Positions 9,626-18,765 of a stretch of DNA of 64,000 nt are shown one piece after another. The DNA lies in the NCBI RefSeq assembly GCF_024139115.2, contig NC_085141.1:400293591-400357590 (forward strand), in the 5' to 3' direction. Position 1 is the first letter of the stretch. Each line of letters starts with the position of its first letter. Source of the DNA: Armigeres subalbatus. Lineage: Eukaryota; Arthropoda; Insecta; Diptera; Culicidae. The notes under the pieces were generated by a model. It searched no databases and was not told the DNA's origin. It was given only the letters and a program-made list of their open reading frames with translations. The position numbers and the translations under genes are program-made.

Positions 9626-11330
9626 ACCCTTCTTACGTCCTAAGAAGGGTATAAAGATCGCTTGAAAAACCGACTTTTTATCCGAGGCTCGGAGACCGAA
9701 GTCGTATACACCAATCAACTCAGCTCGACGAACTGAGCATATGTATGTATGTGTGTGTGTGTGTGCGTATGTGTGTGCGTTACAAAAATCTCACATCAAG
9801 ATCTCAGCCGTCCGTGGACCAATTTGCACGATTTTAACACTAAACGAAAGCTATGACTTTGTCATTGTACGAGTTCAATTTTTTGCAATCGGACATTTGG
9901 TTCCAGAGATATGTGAGAAATACGAACATGAAGTGCATTTTCAGAAAACTAACAAAATACTGTCACATGAATATCTCAGCCGTCTGTAAACCAATTTGCA
10001 TGATTTTATCTTTAAACGAAAGCTATGACTTTGCCATTGAACCCATTGTATTTTGTTTTTGCAATTAGACATTGGGTTCCGGAGATATCTCTGAAATACG
10101 AACATAAAGCATTAGACGTATCAACTTCACACATTGGTAAAATATGTCCCATCAAGATCTCAGTCGTCCTTAGACCGATTTGTGCGATTTTATCTTTAAA
10201 CGAAAGCTATGTTTTTGTCATTGGACCCATTAATTGTTTTCTGCAATCGGAAATTCGGTTTCAGAGATATCTGTGAAATACGAATATGAGACATATTTTC
10301 AGACTACTAATGAAAAATTGTCACACCAATATCTCAGCCGTCTATGACCCGATTTGAACTCTTTTGGGCTTAAACAGAAGCTGTAATATTGCCATTTAAG
10401 GCGGCAAATCAAATCTGCAGTCTTTTTGTATTTTTTTTTTAATTTTAAATTTCCAGAAGTATCCCTTTTTACCCTTCTTACACCCTAAGAAGGGTATAAA
10501 GATCGCTTGAAAAACCGACTTTTTATCCGAGGCTCGGAGACCCAAGTCGTATATACCAATCAACTCAGCTCGACGAACTGAGCACATGTATGTATGTGTG
10601 TGTGTGTGTGTGTGCGTGTGTGCGTGTGTGCGTATGTGTGTGCGTTACAAAAATCTCACATCAAGATCTCAGCCGTCCGTGGACCGATTTACACGATTCT
10701 AACACTAAACGAAAGCTATGACTTTGTCATTGTACGAGTTCAATTTTTTTTGCAATCGGACATTTGGTTCCAGAGATATGTGAGAAATACGAACATGAAG
10801 TATATTTTCAGTAAACTAACGAAATAATGTCACATAAATATCTCAGCCGTCTGTAAACCAATTTGCATGATTTTATCTTTAAACGAAAGCTATGACTTTG
10901 CCATTGAACCCATTGTATTTTGTTTTTGCAATTAGACATTGGGTTCCGGAGATATCTCTGAAATACGAACATAAAGCATTAGACGTATCAACTTCACACA
11001 TTGGTAAAATATGTCCCATCAAGATCTCAGTCGTCCTTGGACCGATTTGTGCGATTTTATCTTTAAACGAAAGCTATGTTTTTGTCATTGGACCTATTAA
11101 ATTTTTTTCTGCAATCGGAAATTTGGTTTTAGAGGTATCTGTGAAATACGAATATGAGACATAATTTCAGACTATTAATGAAGAATTGTCACACCAATAT
11201 CTCAGCCGTCTATGACCCGATTTGAACTCTTTTGGGCTTAAACAGAAGCTGTAATATTGCCATTTAAGGCGGCAAATCAAATCTGCAGTCTTTTTGTATT
11301 TTTTTTTTAATTTTAAATTTCCAGAAGTAT
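9626..11330 (+). repeat. Helentron/HINE-like tandem-repeat element, duplicated head-to-tail, left part
   Basis: Each of two units (9626-10470 and 10471-11330) starts with a hairpin head: ACCCTTCTTAC, a short spacer, then TAAGAAGGGT. A conserved block follows (CAGCTCGACGAACTGAGCA), then a TG microsatellite, then about four 172-184-bp subunits each beginning ATCTCAG(C/T)CGTC (9801, 9973, 10157, 10331). The element continues at 18593 after the LTR retrotransposon and ends near 18765. Conserved ends, microsatellite and core tandem repeats recall non-autonomous Helentrons. No Rep/helicase is encoded, and small open frames inside are artefacts of the repeat. Confidence 0.7.
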
Positions 11331-11768
11331 TGTGCTATACACGCATCGACCCAAAACATCTTTCCCTCGTAAATCAGCACTAGCAATAAAATGCATATTA
11401 TGTTTTGTTACAACCGAATAGGTCAGGTCCGCATGAGCGCGAACGATGGCCTCGGTGCAACATGCGTAAGCAGTTTGCATCGAGGCACTCGAGTGCGCCA
11501 CATGTTTTGCTGATTGGCTAAGGATCAAGTTTCAACCCAAAAGCTATAACCGAAATATTGTCACCGCCGTCCCAGGCGTCTATCCCTTTCTAGCACAGTA
11601 TGTAAATTGTAACCGATTGATTGGAAAATTAAATAAAAGGAACCCAGGTTCCAAACCCAGAACATTCTGGTTCTGACCACAAGACTATGTGTTTCAATGC
11701 ATTTCGATGCATACCGAAACTACTTTAGCAATCTGAATTTCAGACACTGCTAACCATAGGCTATGTTA
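11331..11768 (+). repeat. 5' LTR
   Basis: Starts TGTGCTATACACGC and ends GGCTATGTTA directly before the primer-binding site. It contains an AATAAA in the A-rich stretch near 11630. Identical to the 3' LTR except for TC/CT in CAC(TC)GAGTG and one A in a run. Confidence 0.95.
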
Positions 11769-11783
11769 TGGCGACCGTGACTT
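11769..11783 (+). promoter_or_regulatory. Primer-binding site, tRNA-Arg type
   Basis: TGGCGACCGTGACTT lies immediately after the 5' LTR. The first 13 bases match, from memory, the tRNA-Arg primer site of Drosophila 412 and mdg1. Confidence 0.85.
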
Positions 11784-11831
11784 AGTAACCTGAATACAGT
11801 ACCACGATTATTTCGCGCGCGGTTCTAACAG

Positions 11832-11939
11832 TAAAAAAAAAAGTTCTGTAAGTGAAAAAGTTCTATAAGTGAAAAATTCTATAAGTGAAAAAGATCTATA
11901 AGTGAAAAAGATCTATAAGTGAAAAAAGGCACGCCGGTC

Positions 11940-12018
<79 letters not shown>
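11832..12018 (+). repeat. Leader tandem repeats and (TA)39 microsatellite
   Basis: About five 18-20-bp units of the type TTCTATAAGTGAAAAA (11840-11927) are followed by an uninterrupted TA run at 11941-12018. Both lie in the transcribed leader, upstream of the first small ORF. The TA run creates spurious Y/I open frames on both strands. Confidence 0.9.
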
Positions 12019-12023
<5 letters not shown>

Positions 12024-12047
12024 AAGTGTGTGTATCCAGTGCCGAAG

Positions 12048-12260
12048 ATGGGATGGTTCTCGAGTGACGAGATCGTCACCAATAACGCAACCTGTCCCCC
12101 GCAAGACAATTATCACTTGACACAGGCAATAGCGCTCTGCGTACTAGCAGGTATTGCTGTTGCATACATAGTGATAAAGGCTATAATAAAGGCGAACAAA
12201 CATCACACAGTAAGAGTGGTTGAAAGAGCGGCTCGCGTGGCCAGCATCAACACAGTGTAA
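12048..12260 (+). CDS. Small leader ORF: 70-aa single-pass membrane microprotein
   Basis: First ATG after the TA microsatellite, giving a 70-residue protein. It begins MGWFSSDE, with Gly2 and Ser6, which fits the MGxxxS pattern for N-myristoylation. An NAT glycosylation-type triplet is at residues 13-15. A hydrophobic segment lies at about residues 26-48 (QAIALCVLAGIAVAYIVIK) and a basic tail rich in K, H and R follows. It is the first ORF of the LTR element and is intact, unlike gag and pol. The stop overlaps a GTAAGT (12256-12261) that could serve as a splice donor. I do not know a function. Membrane targeting of assembly or of the RNA is a guess. Small pre-gag ORFs may already be described for mdg1/412 relatives. 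Confidence 0.65.
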   Translation: MGWFSSDEIVTNNATCPPQDNYHLTQAIALCVLAGIAVAYIVIKAIIKANKHHTVRVVERAARVASINTV

Positions 12261-12545
12261 GTGTGGACACCCAACAGCGCAAGTGACTACTATGATTATG
12301 CGCAAGTGATTTTTAGTGAACCAAAGAACTGCAGATGATAAAGCCCCGCAGCAAGAAAGAAGTGCATCGATAGAGAAGATAAGAAAATTGGTTTCGATAG
12401 AGGTTTGAAGTCGAAGAAGATTTTTAGTATTACTGATCATAACGGTCAATTGATGTTCTCGATGCAGTGGAAAGATTCGGCCAACGTGAATCCCGCGCTG
12501 GTCAAGAAGACAAAGTGAACGTGATATGTTAGAAAAGTGTTCGAT

Positions 12546-12899
12546 ATGGCAGAAATGTTGAAACTAATTAACGAGATATTTGCGAAACGAGACAATGGGA
12601 CAATATCCATAACGAACTCTCGATTGTCTAAGCAATTTCTTCAGCTACTAATCAAAGAAGAATTTGTCGAAGTGCAAAAAGTAGCGTACAATAAATACAA
12701 AATCAAGAAAGTGATGGTCAACAACATAGTGGTGGTCGATCGAAGACCAATGAAAGCGAAGTCCGTTCTAGAATTCGCAAGTGAGGTGCTGCCGAGCATC
12801 ACTGGAGCAGTGGTGATATCTACAAACAAGGGCCTGATGACGCACCGAGAAGCAGCCAGCATCAACGCAGGAGGACGCATACTGGCGGTAATTTATTAA
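12546..12899 (+). CDS. Ribosomal protein uS8 (S8/S15a)-family protein carried by the LTR element
   Basis: A 117-residue ORF between leader and gag. An N-terminal AEMLKLINEI block (residues 2-11) matches the ADML-R-I start of uS8. Residues 20-42 (ISITNSRLSKQFLQLLIKEE plus FVE) follow the pattern of the first domain, V-x-P-S-S-K-L ... L-K-x-E-G-Y-I. Residues 87-104 (GAVVISTNKGLMTHREAA) fit the PROSITE ribosomal S8 signature as I recall it. The C-terminus AGGRILAVIY matches the GG-x-(I/V)-L end of the family. Usual length is about 130 residues, so this is nearly full length. In a ribosome uS8 binds the central domain of small-subunit rRNA. Here binding element RNA, tRNA primer or ribosomes is only a guess. 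No stop or frameshift. The start at 12546 is the first ATG in frame; 12555 is an alternative. Confidence 0.8.
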   Translation: MAEMLKLINEIFAKRDNGTISITNSRLSKQFLQLLIKEEFVEVQKVAYNKYKIKKVMVNNIVVVDRRPMKAKSVLEFASEVLPSITGAVVISTNKGLMTHREAASINAGGRILAVIY

Positions 12900-12946
12900 G
12901 GTGGTGAGTCGAAAAATATTTTTTTTTTCTCTAATAAATTTGTGAC

Positions 12947-14260
12947 ATGTCCAAAGAAGAATTAATAATTATTGTAGAAAGTGTTAACAAAGAATTTCAA
13001 AATCTAAACAAGAATAAAAATCGTCCTAGGTCAACCGAAAATGTTCAAGAAAAAACTCAGAAGCTAGTTAATCTACTAAAAACTTATAAAATAATTCTAA
13101 CAAAACTAGAGAGTTCTCTTTCAATTAATGAGTGGAACAATGAGTGTTTGAAATACGCAGAATTAAAACTACATTCCAATCTTGTATAAAATTCTCAAAG
13201 AGTCCAAGTTAATCAAAAATCCAAATCGTTTTAAATTAGCTGTTAAATCCATTATCAATCAAAATCGTTTAAGTAAACTCATCAAAATGCCTACCGTTGA
13301 CATTAAGTTAGGGACAGCCCTGGTCCAAACTTATGATGGAAATCCTGATAATTTAAATGCGTTCCTAGACGCGGTAGATTTATTCAAATCTACAACAGAA
13401 ACGGAATTTGAAGCGGCAACACCCGCGCAAAAACAAGTAGCAGGGGAAACAATTTTCAAATTTGTTAAAACACGTCTCACTGGGGTTGCTCGCCAAGCAA
13501 TTGGAGGAGCAATAGATCTTGATCAAACTCTTATTAATCTGAAGGAACAGTGTGCGCCAAAAATCAACTCAGACAACATAAAGGCAAAATTGATTGCCTT
13601 GAAACAAAAAGGATCCCTAGATGATTTTTGTGAACAAGTTCAAACTTTAACGCAAAAACTTTCAAATTTGTATGTAGAGGAAAAAATACCAGCCGACAAA
13701 GCTAACCAGATGGCCACAAAGAGTGGTGTGGAAGCTTTGATTGGTGGAATATCTAACCATGACACAAAACTTATTCTCAAAGCAGGTACGTTTACAAAAA
13801 TAGTTGATGCCATACAAAACTACAGGAAAATGATAATGGAGAAAAAGTCGTTCACCAAACGGTATGCAAGCACAAGTTTACATTGCAAAAATAATCATTT
13901 TCAACGTGGACGTGGTCGTGGTAGATTTACCAACGACCGTGGAAATTTTCTTCAAGTTACAGACAATATTCCCATCCACCTAGACAAATCAACAATGGAT
14001 CGTCCCGATTTTCGAATTTCCGAGGTAATTACAGCCTAGGACAAAATTTTAATCAGAGAGGACAATGGAGTAGGGGACGAGGAAGGTATGAATCGTCTTC
14101 ATACCCTTCCACGTATTTCATGCAACCAATACAACAAACCGCACAACCAGTTATGCAACAATCCCAACAGGTACCACAACCCATCTACCAACAACAACAA
14201 CAGCAACCAATACAAAACACCAATTTTTTAGGAACACAGTTTGGTCGGCATTTACCATAA
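12947..14260 (+). CDS. gag: Gag polyprotein of the mdg1-type element, two frameshifts
   Basis: Structural protein forming the virus-like particle. The ATG at 12947 opens an acidic/lysine-rich N-terminal part to about 13185. The frame then shifts by one base into the capsid-like core, with LVQTYDGNPDNLNAFLDAVD and LKEQCAPKINSDNIKAKLIA. RGRGRGR near 13910 begins a nucleic-acid-binding region. A second shift near 13945, at a T run, returns to the first frame. That frame continues through an RG- and Q-rich tail (QWSRGRGRY, then poly-Q near 14185-14210) to TAA at 14258-14260. No CCHC zinc knuckle is present, so RG repeats probably bind RNA. Both breaks are single-base. Confidence 0.85.
14224..14230 (+). 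promoter_or_regulatory. Probable -1 programmed ribosomal frameshift site UUUUUUA
   Basis: The heptamer T TTT TTA is aligned with the gag frame (AAT TTT TTA), 27 nt before the gag stop. The pol frame is -1 relative to gag and is open across the overlap ([13 protein letters not shown]) into the protease. I could not assess a downstream pseudoknot. Confidence 0.75.
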
Positions 14261-16385
14261 ATGCCTCGACCTCTAATTATGTTATTTTGAATATAGATTT
14301 ATCAGAAACTCAGTGTAATTTTATTATTGACACAGGATCTGATATATCTGTCATCAAAAGTCAAAAAGTAAAACCTAGTCAAATTTATTATCCCGAAGAA
14401 AAGTGCATCATATCAGGTATAGGTGATGTAGGAATTCACTCTTTAGGTAGTACCTTCGCTAATATAATAATTGATGGTATACAGCTTCAACAAAAATTTC
14501 ATATAGTCCAAAATGATTTTCCAATTCCAACAGATGGAATCATTGGAAGAGATTTCTTATCAAATTATAAATGCAAAATCGACCATGGATTTTATCATTT
14601 ACCATAGACAACCTACCCATTTCAATACCTATTGAAGACAATTTTCAAAACAAATTTTTCTTACCTCCACGATATGAAGTTACCCGTTACATTCCAAATC
14701 AAAACTTGCAAGAGGATATGGTCGTACATTCACAAGAAATCCAACCTGGAGTTTTTTGTGGAAATACGATTATATCAGCTAAAGAACCAATACTTAAATT
14801 CATTAATACAACCAATAAAGCAGTTTATGTTGCATATTCAGATTTCAAACCACACATGGAACCACTTAGTAATTTTCAAATAATACCACACAAAAATTAC
14901 TCAATTGATAAAACCATTCGGCGAAACAAAATTTTGAAAAATTTGGATACTCAACATCTTACTCCACATGCTAAATGTGAACTTGAAAGATTAATTATTC
15001 AGTACGAAGATATTTTTAACATGGAAGACGAAAAGCTGTCAACCAATAACTTTTATACACAGAACATAAGTCTTACTGATAATGTTCCGGTATACATACC
15101 AAATTACAAAACCATTCATGCCCAAGGTGAAGAAATCGAAAAGCAAATCCAACAAATGTTAAATGACGAAATCATCGAACCCTCAGTTTCGTCATACAAT
15201 TCCCCAATATTACTTGTACCGAAAAAATCGAACAATTCTGAAAAAATGGCGATTAGTCGTAGATTTTAGACAATTAAACAAAAAAATTATGCCCGACAAA
15301 TTCCCACTACCAAGGATTGAAAGTATTTTGGATCAACTTGGTAGAGCAAAGTATTTTAGCACGTTGGATCTGATGTCAGGTTTTCATCAGATCCCCTTGG
15401 ACAATAATTCAAAAAGATTTACTGCATTTTCTTCCAACTCTGGACACTATCATTTCAAGCGATTACCATTTGGATTAAATATTAGTCCAAATAGTTTTCA
15501 AAGAATGATGGCTATTGCTATGGCAGGTTTAACACCTGAACGTGCATTCATCTATATTGATGATATTGTTGTTATTGGATGTTCTTTAAAGCATCATTTA
15601 TCTAATTTAGCATCAGTATTTGAACGCTTGAGAAGATACAACTTAAAATTAAATTTATCTAAATGTAAATTTTTGAGAACCGAAGTGACCTATCTGGGTC
15701 ATAAAATAACAGATAGAGGCATATTGCCAGATGACAGTAAATTCGAAGCCATTAAAAATTATCCCATACCGAAAAATGCCGATGAAGTGCGACGATTTGT
15801 TGCTTTTTGCAATTATTACCGCAGATTTGTCGAAAAATTTGCTGATATTGCTTATCCACTAAACCAACTATTGAAGAAAAATGCTACTTTTAAATGGACC
15901 GACAATTGTCAAAACGCATTTGATCTGTTAAGACAGCATTTGATGTCACCAAGATTATTGCAATACCCTGATTTTTCCCAAAAATTCATATTAACTACAG
16001 ACGCTTCCGATATTGGATGCGGAGCCGTGTTGTCTCAAGTTTCAGAAGCAGGTGATAGACCTATTGCTTTTGCAAGCAAAACGTTCACACCAGCCGAGAA
16101 AAATAAACCTACTATATTAAAGGAACTTATAGCCATACACTGGGCCATAAATTATTTTGAGGCTTATCTGTATGGAAGACGTTTCACAGTACGTACAGAT
16201 CACAGACCTCTTGTGTATCTGTTCGGAATCAAAAACCCACATCAAAATTGACTCGAATTCGTATCGATCTTGAAGGATTCGATTACGATGTTGTATATAT
16301 AAAAGGTAAGGAAAACGTGGCAGCTGACGCATTATCGCGGATAGCTACTACGTCTGATGAATTAAAAAATGTAATATATTATTAG
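14231..16385 (+). CDS. pol: Pol: aspartic protease, reverse transcriptase and RNase H, three frameshifts
   Basis: Expressed as Gag-Pol by -1 frameshifting. Protease: [13 protein letters not shown] with the catalytic DTG at 14329-14337, and the conserved IGRD near 14550. RT: the fingers motif [25 protein letters not shown], and YIDD active site at 15553-15564, then YLGH. RNase [16 protein letters not shown], the [10 protein letters not shown] block and VRTDHRPL, ending [11 protein letters not shown]. Single-base frame breaks occur at about 14600, 15240 (A run) and 16240. The frame then closes at 16383-16385, where another small indel precedes the integrase. All key catalytic residues are present, so the breaks look recent or artefactual. 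Confidence 0.9.
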
Positions 16386-17866
16386 TTAATACAAGGTCTA
16401 TGACCCGAAATGTACAAAAGTCTAGTAAAAATAATTTAGCTAAAATCAAGAATGACAAAACTACTATTGAAAATAAGGAGACTGATCACCTCTATGCATA
16501 TGAAACTGAATGCCCTACGGAGACTAGAAAAATGATGAAGCTGTGCACAGCCGTAGTGGACAATACTCTGAAATTTATAATATTGAAAAATAATTGCAAA
16601 ACGATTGTTGCACAAGTGCATCAAGACGTTAGAAATGGAAGTCACACATTCGAGTGTGCTCTCCCAGAAATCGAAAAAATTATGAAAAAATTAAACGCGA
16701 AAAAATTAGCGCTGTCGACAAACGATTATATTTTTAGCATGGTACCATTGAACTTATTCAAAATGATTGCAAATAAAATTTTGAAAACTCTAAAAATAGT
16801 AATTTACAAAGAACCTATCTTCGTAAATAACCCTAATGATATACAAACTATTTTAAATAATCACCATAACTTACCCGTCGGAGGTCATGTAGGTCAACAT
16901 CGTTTGTACCTCAGACTTCGCGAAAAATACAAATGGCACGATATGAAAAGGTCTATTGCTCAATTCGTTGAGGCCTGCGAATTGTGCAAAAGAAATAAGA
17001 TTATCAAGCATACAAAAGAATCAATGATTATAACAACAACTCCATCAAAGGCATTTGAAGTAATATCCATAGACACTGTTGGACCTTTGCCCAAGTCAAA
17101 TAAAAATAACCGTTATTGCATTACAATCCAATGCGATCTCACAAAGTACATAACCATAATCCCTATTCCAAACAAAGAAGCAAACACCATAGCTAGAGCG
17201 TTAGTCGAAAATTTTATTTTGACGTTCGGAAATTTCCTCGAATTGCGTTCTGATCAAGGTACTGAATACAACAATGAAGTACTCGAACAGATTAGCAAAT
17301 TACTCCAAATCAAGCAAACATTTTCAACACCATATCACCCACAGTCAATTGGTTCATTGGAGAGAAATCACAGATGTCTCAATGAGTATCTGCGATCATT
17401 CACCAATGCGCACCAATCAGATTGGGATGATTGGATAAAATTTTACGAATTCTCGTACAACACAACCCCCCACACGGACCATAGTTTCACCCCATTTGAG
17501 TTGATATTTGGCAGAAAAGCTAACCTTCCCCAAGACGTATTAGAAAACAGTAACGAACCAGTTTATAACTACGAGTCTTATAAAAACGAATTGAAATTTA
17601 AGTTGAGCCAATCTCACGAATTAGTAAAGCAAAAACTATTAGACCATAAATATCAAAGAAAACAGCAATATGATAACAACCTCAATCCCATTTCTGTTGT
17701 GATTAATGACATAGTTTATCTAAAAAATGAAAACAGGAGCAAATTAGATTCCTTTTATCTTGGACCATATAAAATAATAAAAATTGTAGAACCAAATTGT
17801 GAAATCCAACACATACTTTCAGGAAAAACTACAAATATACACAAAAATAGATTAATCAAAGCATAA
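16386..17866 (+). CDS. pol: Pol: integrase
   Basis: DNA integrase domain of the same polyprotein. Counting from the ATG at 16400, the zinc-binding H155/H156, H163, C193 and C196 are followed by catalytic D225 (ISIDTVGP), D285 (RSDQGTEYNN) and E321 (HPQSIGSLERNH). A GPY/F-like C-terminal block (FYLGPYKIIKI) follows, and the frame ends GKTTNIHKNRLIKA at 17866. The conserved pre-integrase words NTRSMTR lie just upstream in this frame, showing that it is the continuation of the RNase H frame after an AT-sized indel near 16375. Long (nearly 490 codons) and uninterrupted. No env-like ORF follows. Confidence 0.93.
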
Positions 17867-18142
17867 ATTAGTTTGTTTATATAACTTTAACTAGAGTCCC
17901 ACCGAGCCTAACCTCACACAAAAAATAATAAATTCAAAAAATAAGTAAAATGATGAGGTAGGTGAAAGTTCCCAGCTTTATGCTGAGGAGTGCAAAATTC
18001 GGTTAGTCTAGATATAAAGTGAAAAAGTAGTGTTAGAAAAAAAAAACCCAAATTCATGTAAAACTCAAAATATTGTAAAGGCATCTGGGACCGGCAACCA
18101 AATGAATGATTCCACTTCACTTTCTTTCCATTACATCATTTC
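17867..18142 (+). other. 3' untranslated region of the LTR element
   Basis: AT-rich sequence between the integrase stop and the polypurine tract. No ORF of note. Confidence 0.7.
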
Positions 18143-18153
18143 AAGGGTGGAAG
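18143..18153 (+). promoter_or_regulatory. Polypurine tract
   Basis: AAGGGTGGAAG, one T in an otherwise all-purine run, lies directly before the 3' LTR. It is the expected plus-strand primer. Confidence 0.8.
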
Positions 18154-18592
18154 TGTGCTATACACGCATCGACCCAAAACATCTTTCCCTCGTAAATCAG
18201 CACTAGCAATAAAATGCATATTATGTTTTGTTACAACCGAATAGGTCAGGTCCGCATGAGCGCGAACGATGGCCTCGGTGCAACATGCGTAAGCAGTTTG
18301 CATCGAGGCACCTGAGTGCGCCACATGTTTTGCTGATTGGCTAAGGATCAAGTTTCAACCCAAAAGCTATAACCGAAATATTGTCACCGCCGTCCCAGGC
18401 GTCTATCCCTTTCTAGCACAGTATGTAAATTGTAACCGATTGATTGGAAAATTAAATAAAAAGGAACCCAGGTTCCAAACCCAGAACATTCTGGTTCTGA
18501 CCACAAGACTATGTGTTTCAATGCATTTCGATGCATACCGAAACTACTTTAGCAATCTGAATTTCAGACACTGCTAACCATAGGCTATGTTA
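18154..18592 (+). repeat. 3' LTR
   Basis: Same sequence as 11331-11768 apart from two adjacent substitutions and one extra A. Followed directly by the target duplicate GTAT. Confidence 0.95.
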
Positions 18593-18765
18593 GTATCCCT
18601 TTTTTATTTTGAAATCGTTAAAAGCATGATAATATCAGTTATTTTACATTCAATTGAAGGTCATATGCATAGAAATTGTAATATGCACTGGGCACACACA
18701 ACCATTCAAAAGTGTAAGAAGGGTTGCGTTCACTGTAGGTGGATTAAGTCGGGTTTTTAAAATTA
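18593..18765 (+). repeat. Right end of the interrupted HINE-like element
   Basis: GTATCCCTTTTT continues the unit broken at 11330 and matches the uninterrupted sister unit at 10459-10470. The tail GTAAGAAGGGT (near 18714) is the exact inverted complement of the head ACCCTTCTTAC at 9626. AGGTGGATTAAGTCGGGTTTTT closes the element. Confidence 0.7.

Follow-up and report, generated by a model that had tools for sequence, protein, structure and literature searches.

Why does a retrotransposon carry, ahead of its gag gene, an open reading frame that resembles a ribosomal protein? The question is raised by a locus of the mosquito Armigeres subalbatus lying in a 64,000-nucleotide stretch of contig NC_085141.1 (positions 400,293,591 to 400,357,590, forward strand; this whole stretch is called the window). 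A preliminary description, made from the letters, had placed a 117-codon open reading frame (ORF) of the ribosomal protein uS8 family between the leader and gag of a Ty3/mdg1-type long terminal repeat (LTR) retrotransposon. In our study the family and the host element have been confirmed by profile PF00410, by phmmer and by the element structure, and the site of the ORF at 12546-12899 by the frame positions. Two points are new: a group of elements conserves the uS8 ORF as an accessory gene, and this ORF is the likely identity of sORF1, a protein of Drosophila MDG1 elements. The results suggest that these virus-like elements have borrowed an RNA-binding ribosomal protein and use it in their life cycle.

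Homology and predicted fold of the uS8 ORF

In the Pfam profile search, the window protein matched PF00410 (Ribosomal_S8) with an E-value of 2.1e-10 and 41.1 bits (gathering threshold 24), the alignment covering residues 2-117 of the protein and positions 4-126 of the 126 in the profile. The best phmmer match in PDB (E 1.5e-7) was to a uS8. An AlphaFold2 model, built with element-like relatives, reached a predicted local distance difference test (pLDDT) score of 90 and matched uS8 structures, and the structural check proposed in the preliminary description has thereby given a predicted uS8 fold. The model predicted for the ORF of the L054 type (L-numbers denote places in the genome) likewise has the uS8 fold. 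On sequence comparison the window ORF shows homology along its full length to ribosomal protein uS8, with a uS8 fold predicted. The C-terminal words STNKGLMTHREA and GGRIL are present as had been described, and the protein is basic, with an isoelectric point (pI) of 9.9.

In the other types of the ORF, PF00410 scored 49.3 bits for L014, 30.5 for L011 and 27.8 for both L042 and L051; L054 reached 23.7 bits, just under the gathering threshold, and the frame-broken L018 ORF gave no PF00410 match in the Pfam search. The length of the ORF over the types is 117-123 amino acids (aa). Ribosomal uS8 (S8, RPS15A, Rps22) has the whole domain, the predicted fold and a part of the RNA-contact residues in common with the element protein, whereas it is about 130 aa long in place of 117, and its host representative is only 23-34% identical. 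The window protein also falls far below the NCBIfam equivalog cutoffs (44.9 bits for the archaeal model, cutoff 126; 36.9 bits for the bacterial model, cutoff 119).

Occurrence of the family and its origin

The genome searched measures 1.336 Gb (three large contigs of 319, 465 and 430 Mb), and all match counts are lower bounds. At least 18 matches were obtained with the window protein (P0001), at least 31 with the L014 ORF, at least 19 with the L054 ORF and at least 29 with P0006, which stands for L018 in the tree. Merging the P0001, L014 and L054 searches by place gave at least 37 distinct places, and host RPS15A was not among them. Stops inside the match occur in 5 of the 37, and the ends are cut or shifted at L010, L013, L017, L018, L045, L053 and L058. 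By our grouping these places form about ten types, namely the window type (10 places and 2 decayed), L042 (10), L054 (5), L011, L013, L014, L017, L018, L051 and L059, with three weak places outside them; presence in sister elements, which had been named as a check, is thus found in about ten types. Identity between types falls to 21-30%, and ranges from 21 to 43% over the ten pairs compared.

Nine of the ten window-type places found by the protein match residues 1-117, and the frame is whole in 9/9 (seven identical, two with one change each); at the tenth, L010, the match begins at residue 12. Two older decayed places of this type (L012 and L015/L016) have internal stops. In L005 and L006, also of the window type, the leader is short by about 670 and 550 bp, including the membrane ORF described below, and the uS8 ORF is whole.

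A search of a set of 5.8 billion proteins listed at least 22 proteins, which are P0001, 11 element-like proteins (so called by similarity, not by genomic context) and 10 proteins judged to be archaeal uS8. A second protein-set search listed at least 46 and supplied one further element-like protein, P0023. Among BFVD viral structures 0/570 matches reached E 0.001, and viral_contigs searched with P0001 and L042 gave no confirmed locus. No paper on a uS8/S8 ORF in an LTR element was found in the literature searched, in which subscription journals are thinly covered.

In a tree of 33 rows, the 12 element ORFs made up one side of a branch with a support of 100/100, the other rows being 14 archaeal (most by our label), 3 eukaryotic and 4 bacterial uS8. 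In a tree of 31 rows, where the host gene replaced the human one, 11/11 element ORFs fell on one branch (99/100). The approximately unbiased test (p-AU) gave 0.384 for a common clade with eukaryotes, 0.447 with bacteria and 0.322 with archaea, and none was rejected. The phylogenetic check has hence placed the element ORFs on one branch, while the source lineage is not decided by p-AU. The impression in the preliminary description that some words are closer to the bacterial type did not hold, as the archaeal-type model outscores the bacterial one on the window protein (44.9 against 36.9 bits) and the profile finds its best PDB matches in uS8 of eukaryotic type and of archaea. The two models match 15/15 and 14/15 relatives, respectively. 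Since the tree rejects none of the three origins, the claim is limited to profile likeness: the element uS8 appears archaeal/eukaryotic-like by profile, and the tree is compatible with any of the three. A bacterial origin was set aside for its lower score, though no origin is rejected by the tree. A recent host RPS15A pseudogene is ruled out, as the host gene lies at C1:194308809-194315404 in two coding parts separated by about 6 kb and shares only 23-34% identity with the 11 element ORFs; two archaeal uS8 showed 24-38% in the same comparison.

Selection and frame integrity

Purifying selection acts between the types. The ratio of non-synonymous to synonymous rates (dN/dS) between sister types, another check that had been named, was below 1 with values of 0.18-0.49 in 5/6 pairs with estimable dS (dS 1.35-3.69, near saturation), and in the window/L011 pair dN was 0.35 with dS saturated. 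The differences were biased by codon position in 6/6 between-type pairs (p 5e-6 to 0.01; the pairs are not independent). In six of the ten copies of the L042 type, dN was less than dS in 15/15 pairs. The comparison of L054 with L060, a 94% copy, points the other way with dN 0.026 close to dS 0.025, which is expected because copies decay after insertion.

The preliminary description had also drawn attention to the intact uS8 frame beside frameshifted gag and pol. The contrast is real: in the ten window-type copies, indel columns number 0/354 in uS8 and 18/849 in gag (Fisher p 0.003). It is however partly due to a difference in base composition, as homopolymer runs of four or more number 2 in the uS8 ORF and 26 in 854 nt of gag, and by our reading 15 of the 18 gag indel columns fall in such runs. 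Counted per homopolymer run, the indel difference between uS8 and gag is not significant (p 0.12), and variable substitution columns are 3/354 in uS8 and 21/849 in gag (p 0.07). The use of the intact frame as proof of selection is therefore weakened by the gag homopolymers, where assembly error is possible. Six of the ten window-type copies showed a membrane ORF of 60 aa or more, and the gag frames vary among the copies.

Structure of the host element and the adjoining membrane ORF

The element in the window spans 11331-18592 (7.26 kb) and is an mdg1-like Ty3 element. Its features are as follows (TSD, target-site duplication).

11331..11768, + strand, 5' LTR (TGTGCT...ATGTTA), direct repeat with 18154-18592; TSD copy GTAT at 11327-11330
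11769..11781, + strand, primer-binding site TGGCGACCGTGAC, by motif match
11941-12019, AT microsatellite in the leader, between the primer-binding site and the membrane ORF
12048..12260, + strand, sORF2/FAST-like membrane ORF, 70 aa, MGWFSS start, one hydrophobic segment followed by basic residues
12546..12899, + strand, uS8-like ORF, 117 aa, ATG start, 117 codons and stop
12933..12938, + strand, AATAAA, possible poly(A) signal, 34 nt 3' of the uS8 stop
12947..14039, + strand, gag, two overlapping frames (12947-13189 and 13182-14039), relatives found by tblastn
14287..14607, + strand, aspartyl protease, PF00077 (E 3.1e-10)
15163..16251, + strand, reverse transcriptase (RT) and RNase H, PF00078, PF17919 and PF17917
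16400..17866, + strand, integrase, PF17921 and PF00665
18154..18592, + strand, 3' LTR; TSD copy GTAT at 18593-18596, purine-rich tract directly 5' (by eye)

The uS8 ORF is flanked 5' by the leader and 3' by the first gag frame at 12947. The gag region 12947-14039 gave no Pfam match, and the gag and pol of this copy are broken into several frames. The LTRs measure 438 and 439 bp with 436/439 aligned positions identical, and the flanking GTAT was recognised by eye. The TGGCGACCGTGAC site is probably of the tRNA-Arg type, by its likeness to published mdg1 elements. The primer motif TGGCGACCG is present in the window element and was found in 4/11 stretches scanned. The element agrees with the MDG1 group of Ty3/gypsy in LTR length (about 430-450 bp in the group), in the 4-bp TSD and in the order gag, protease, RT, RNase H and integrase; for Culex elements of the mdg1 lineage, LTRs of 431-444, a primer-binding site for Arg and a 4-bp TSD are described (PMC3286476).

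A membrane ORF of 64-85 aa adjoins the uS8 ORF in 8/10 types. The published features of sORF2/fusion-associated small transmembrane (FAST)-like proteins are the motif MGxxx[ST], one transmembrane (TM) segment and a basic juxtamembrane region (PMC11952523). All three are seen in the window membrane ORF, with a Kyte-Doolittle 19-residue maximum of 2.56 and four K/R in the next 15 residues. Over the eight membrane ORFs, the motif is present in seven (exception L018), the hydrophobic maximum exceeds 1.6 in seven (exception L011, 1.43), and 4-7 basic residues follow within 15 of the hydrophobic segment in all eight. On the minus strand of L018, at 168-491, a second hydrophobic ORF of 107 aa lies downstream of the 64-aa membrane ORF.

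The order of the cassette differs among the types. It is uS8-TM-gag in L018 (read on the minus strand), L042, L051 and L054, and TM-uS8 in the window, L011, L014 and L017 types; gag was not recognised downstream of L014 by tblastn with relatives. In the 33-row tree the uS8-first types were grouped with 97/94 support (P0006 for L018; the group includes L059, near which no membrane ORF was seen). This grouping was not recovered in the 31-row tree, and gene order may not be a reliable guide to the uS8 phylogeny. RT identity is 92% for window-L054, 89% for window-L051 and 86% for L054-L051, whereas uS8 identity for the same pairs is 22%, 25% and 43%. Because the RT of the window element is 89-92% identical to these two while uS8 shares 22-25% and the order is reversed, the 5' cassette and pol seem, from these comparisons, to have different histories, as in mosaic elements. 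Plain fast evolution in place of cassette exchange is disfavoured by the same contrast and by the reversed order, although exchange is not proven.

Comparison with sORF1 and sORF2 of Drosophila MDG1 elements

The membrane ORF at 12048-12260, which was absent from the preliminary description, adjoins the uS8 ORF and thereby makes a comparison with the sORF1/sORF2 pair of flies possible. A preprint reports that Drosophila MDG1 elements reach the oocyte from the follicle cells independently of Envelope, with sORF2 at the plasma membrane; sORF1 is about 110 aa long, translated and subnuclear, with a low non-synonymous rate, and a short transcript terminates after it (PMC11952523). The highest diversity of sORF2-like sequences is reported for A. 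aegypti (PMC11952523). As a FAST-like protein of an insect LTR element, ORF 12048-12260 is the partner and not the uS8 ORF itself. Like the uS8 ORF, the sORF1 of 412, mdg1, Stalker2 and Blood precedes gag as an accessory ORF, some 110 aa long, and is paired with a short membrane ORF. Because the membrane ORF stands beside it and four types (L018, L042, L051 and L054) share the fly order sORF1-sORF2-gag, the uS8 ORF probably corresponds to sORF1 as the latter is described in print.

Several observations weigh against this equivalence. The order is reversed in the window, L011, L014 and L017 types, and L013 and L059 showed no membrane ORF in the 3.3 kb and 1.4 kb covered, respectively. For sORF1 the authors propose a possible helix-turn-helix and not uS8, and the word 'ribosomal' is absent from that text (PMC11952523). 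A poly(A) signal after the ORF, as in fly sORF1, is not conserved over the types: relative to the uS8 stop, AATAAA lies at +34 in the window, +33 in L001 and +65 in L059, and ATTAAA at -4 in L011 and +10 in L017, while the 100 nt that follow the stop contain no signal in L014, L018, L051, L054 and three L042-type copies.

A broader proposal, whose chances we put slightly short of even, is that the sORF1 of the whole MDG1 group, including Drosophila 412, would be an anciently captured uS8. Infectious elements lacking Envelope would then carry a two-gene cassette, consisting of a nuclear uS8 RNA-binding protein and a FAST-like fusogen, which would be exchanged as a module and would separate an early RNA-control step from late cell-to-cell transfer. 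As sORF1 is expressed, conserved and subnuclear in flies, its function would be directly testable if the mosquito counterpart is uS8, by asking which RNA is bound.

Possible role of the uS8 protein

In S8-RNA complexes most contacts come from the C-terminal domain; S107 makes the sole base-specific contact, the backbone of S107-T108-S109 stacks on an adenine, and a tyrosine contact is taken over by R124 in M. jannaschii (PMC4176348). In our alignment the window protein retains S107, T108, K110 and G124 as S92, T93, K95 and G109, and its R111 is an arginine as in M. jannaschii. The most conserved columns include the loop glycine, a near-invariant threonine and the GG pair. Uses beyond the ribosome are known for the family, since bacterial S8 acts on spc mRNA (PMC4176348) and yeast Rps22 (uS8) represses splicing of the intron in its own 5' untranslated region (PMC13232506). 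Such autoregulation (yeast RPS22B intron, bacterial spc operon) resembles the present case in that the same family acts on non-ribosomal RNA, and differs in being cellular.

This accessory gene of mdg1-type Ty3 retrotransposons encodes a protein with a predicted free-standing uS8 fold that is probably RNA-binding; for the explanation as a whole, with the sORF1 equivalence and the mechanism below, we regard the chances as even. A role in nuclear RNA binding on element RNA is favoured because fly sORF1 is subnuclear and eukaryotic uS8 can act on non-ribosomal RNA, and even so it is a tentative assignment. By analogy, the uS8 protein would be translated from the 5' region of the element RNA and would enter the nucleus, its C-terminal loop may bind structured RNA (the element's own transcript or host RNA), and it would thereby control the processing or fate of element RNA, as yeast Rps22 and bacterial S8 do with their targets; taken as a whole, this course is conceivable and somewhat doubtful. 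Residues S109, T123 and E126 of Bacillus S8 are replaced by N94, A108 and R111 in the window protein, and the base-contacting serine is changed in 5/11 aligned sequences (Thr in L042 and P0004, Ala in L014, Tyr in L051 and Phe in L054), which implies an altered or lost RNA specificity in these cases. Rfam gave six weak matches, none at gathering, five of them on the AT repeat 11941-12019, and a 340-nt piece of the leader showed no more stable folding than its shuffled versions (z -0.13). These points count against the proposed role, and as no RNA site was found in the leader, the RNA-control step is one that we infer.

The same residues bear on other explanations. The protein may enter the 40S or pre-40S particle in place of RPS15A, or compete for rRNA, and so tune translation of the multi-ORF element RNA. 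The whole predicted uS8 fold, the pI and the RNA-loop residues partly kept in the window type agree with this, and short ORFs precede gag in the element RNA, so that altered initiation could help; yet the 11 element ORFs are so distant from RPS15A, the protein is about 13 residues shorter and the contact serine is so often changed that we hold it to be unlikely. That serine replacement, together with the fast evolution (21-43% identity in ten pairs) and the membrane ORF remaining adjacent in 8/10 types, would suit a uS8 fold kept as a module for protein-protein contact or particle assembly, Gag and the membrane ORF being possible partners and RNA binding being incidental or lost. This too has a low probability in our judgement, as the most conserved columns include the glycine, threonine and GG pair named above, and sORF1 is subnuclear in flies whereas sORF2 is at the membrane, which gives them no common place there. 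An accidental capture of a host ribosomal gene with no role for the element would have a parallel in the host-gene capture known for LTR elements, for example in plants; it is largely contradicted by the single well-supported branch with many types, by between-type dN/dS values below 1 with a bias over codon positions and by the whole frame in 9/9 full window-type matches, and is highly improbable.

If the mosquito counterpart of sORF1 is a uS8, this would be, within the literature searched, the first case in which a retroelement clade conserves a ribosomal protein as an accessory gene, and a ribosomal RNA-binding fold would here have evolved towards a parasitic use.

As a further observation, L024 (C1:95321500-95331400) contains two mdg1-like elements seemingly in tandem on the minus strand, with an integrase and a gag piece upstream of a second uS8-TM-gag-protease-RT run.
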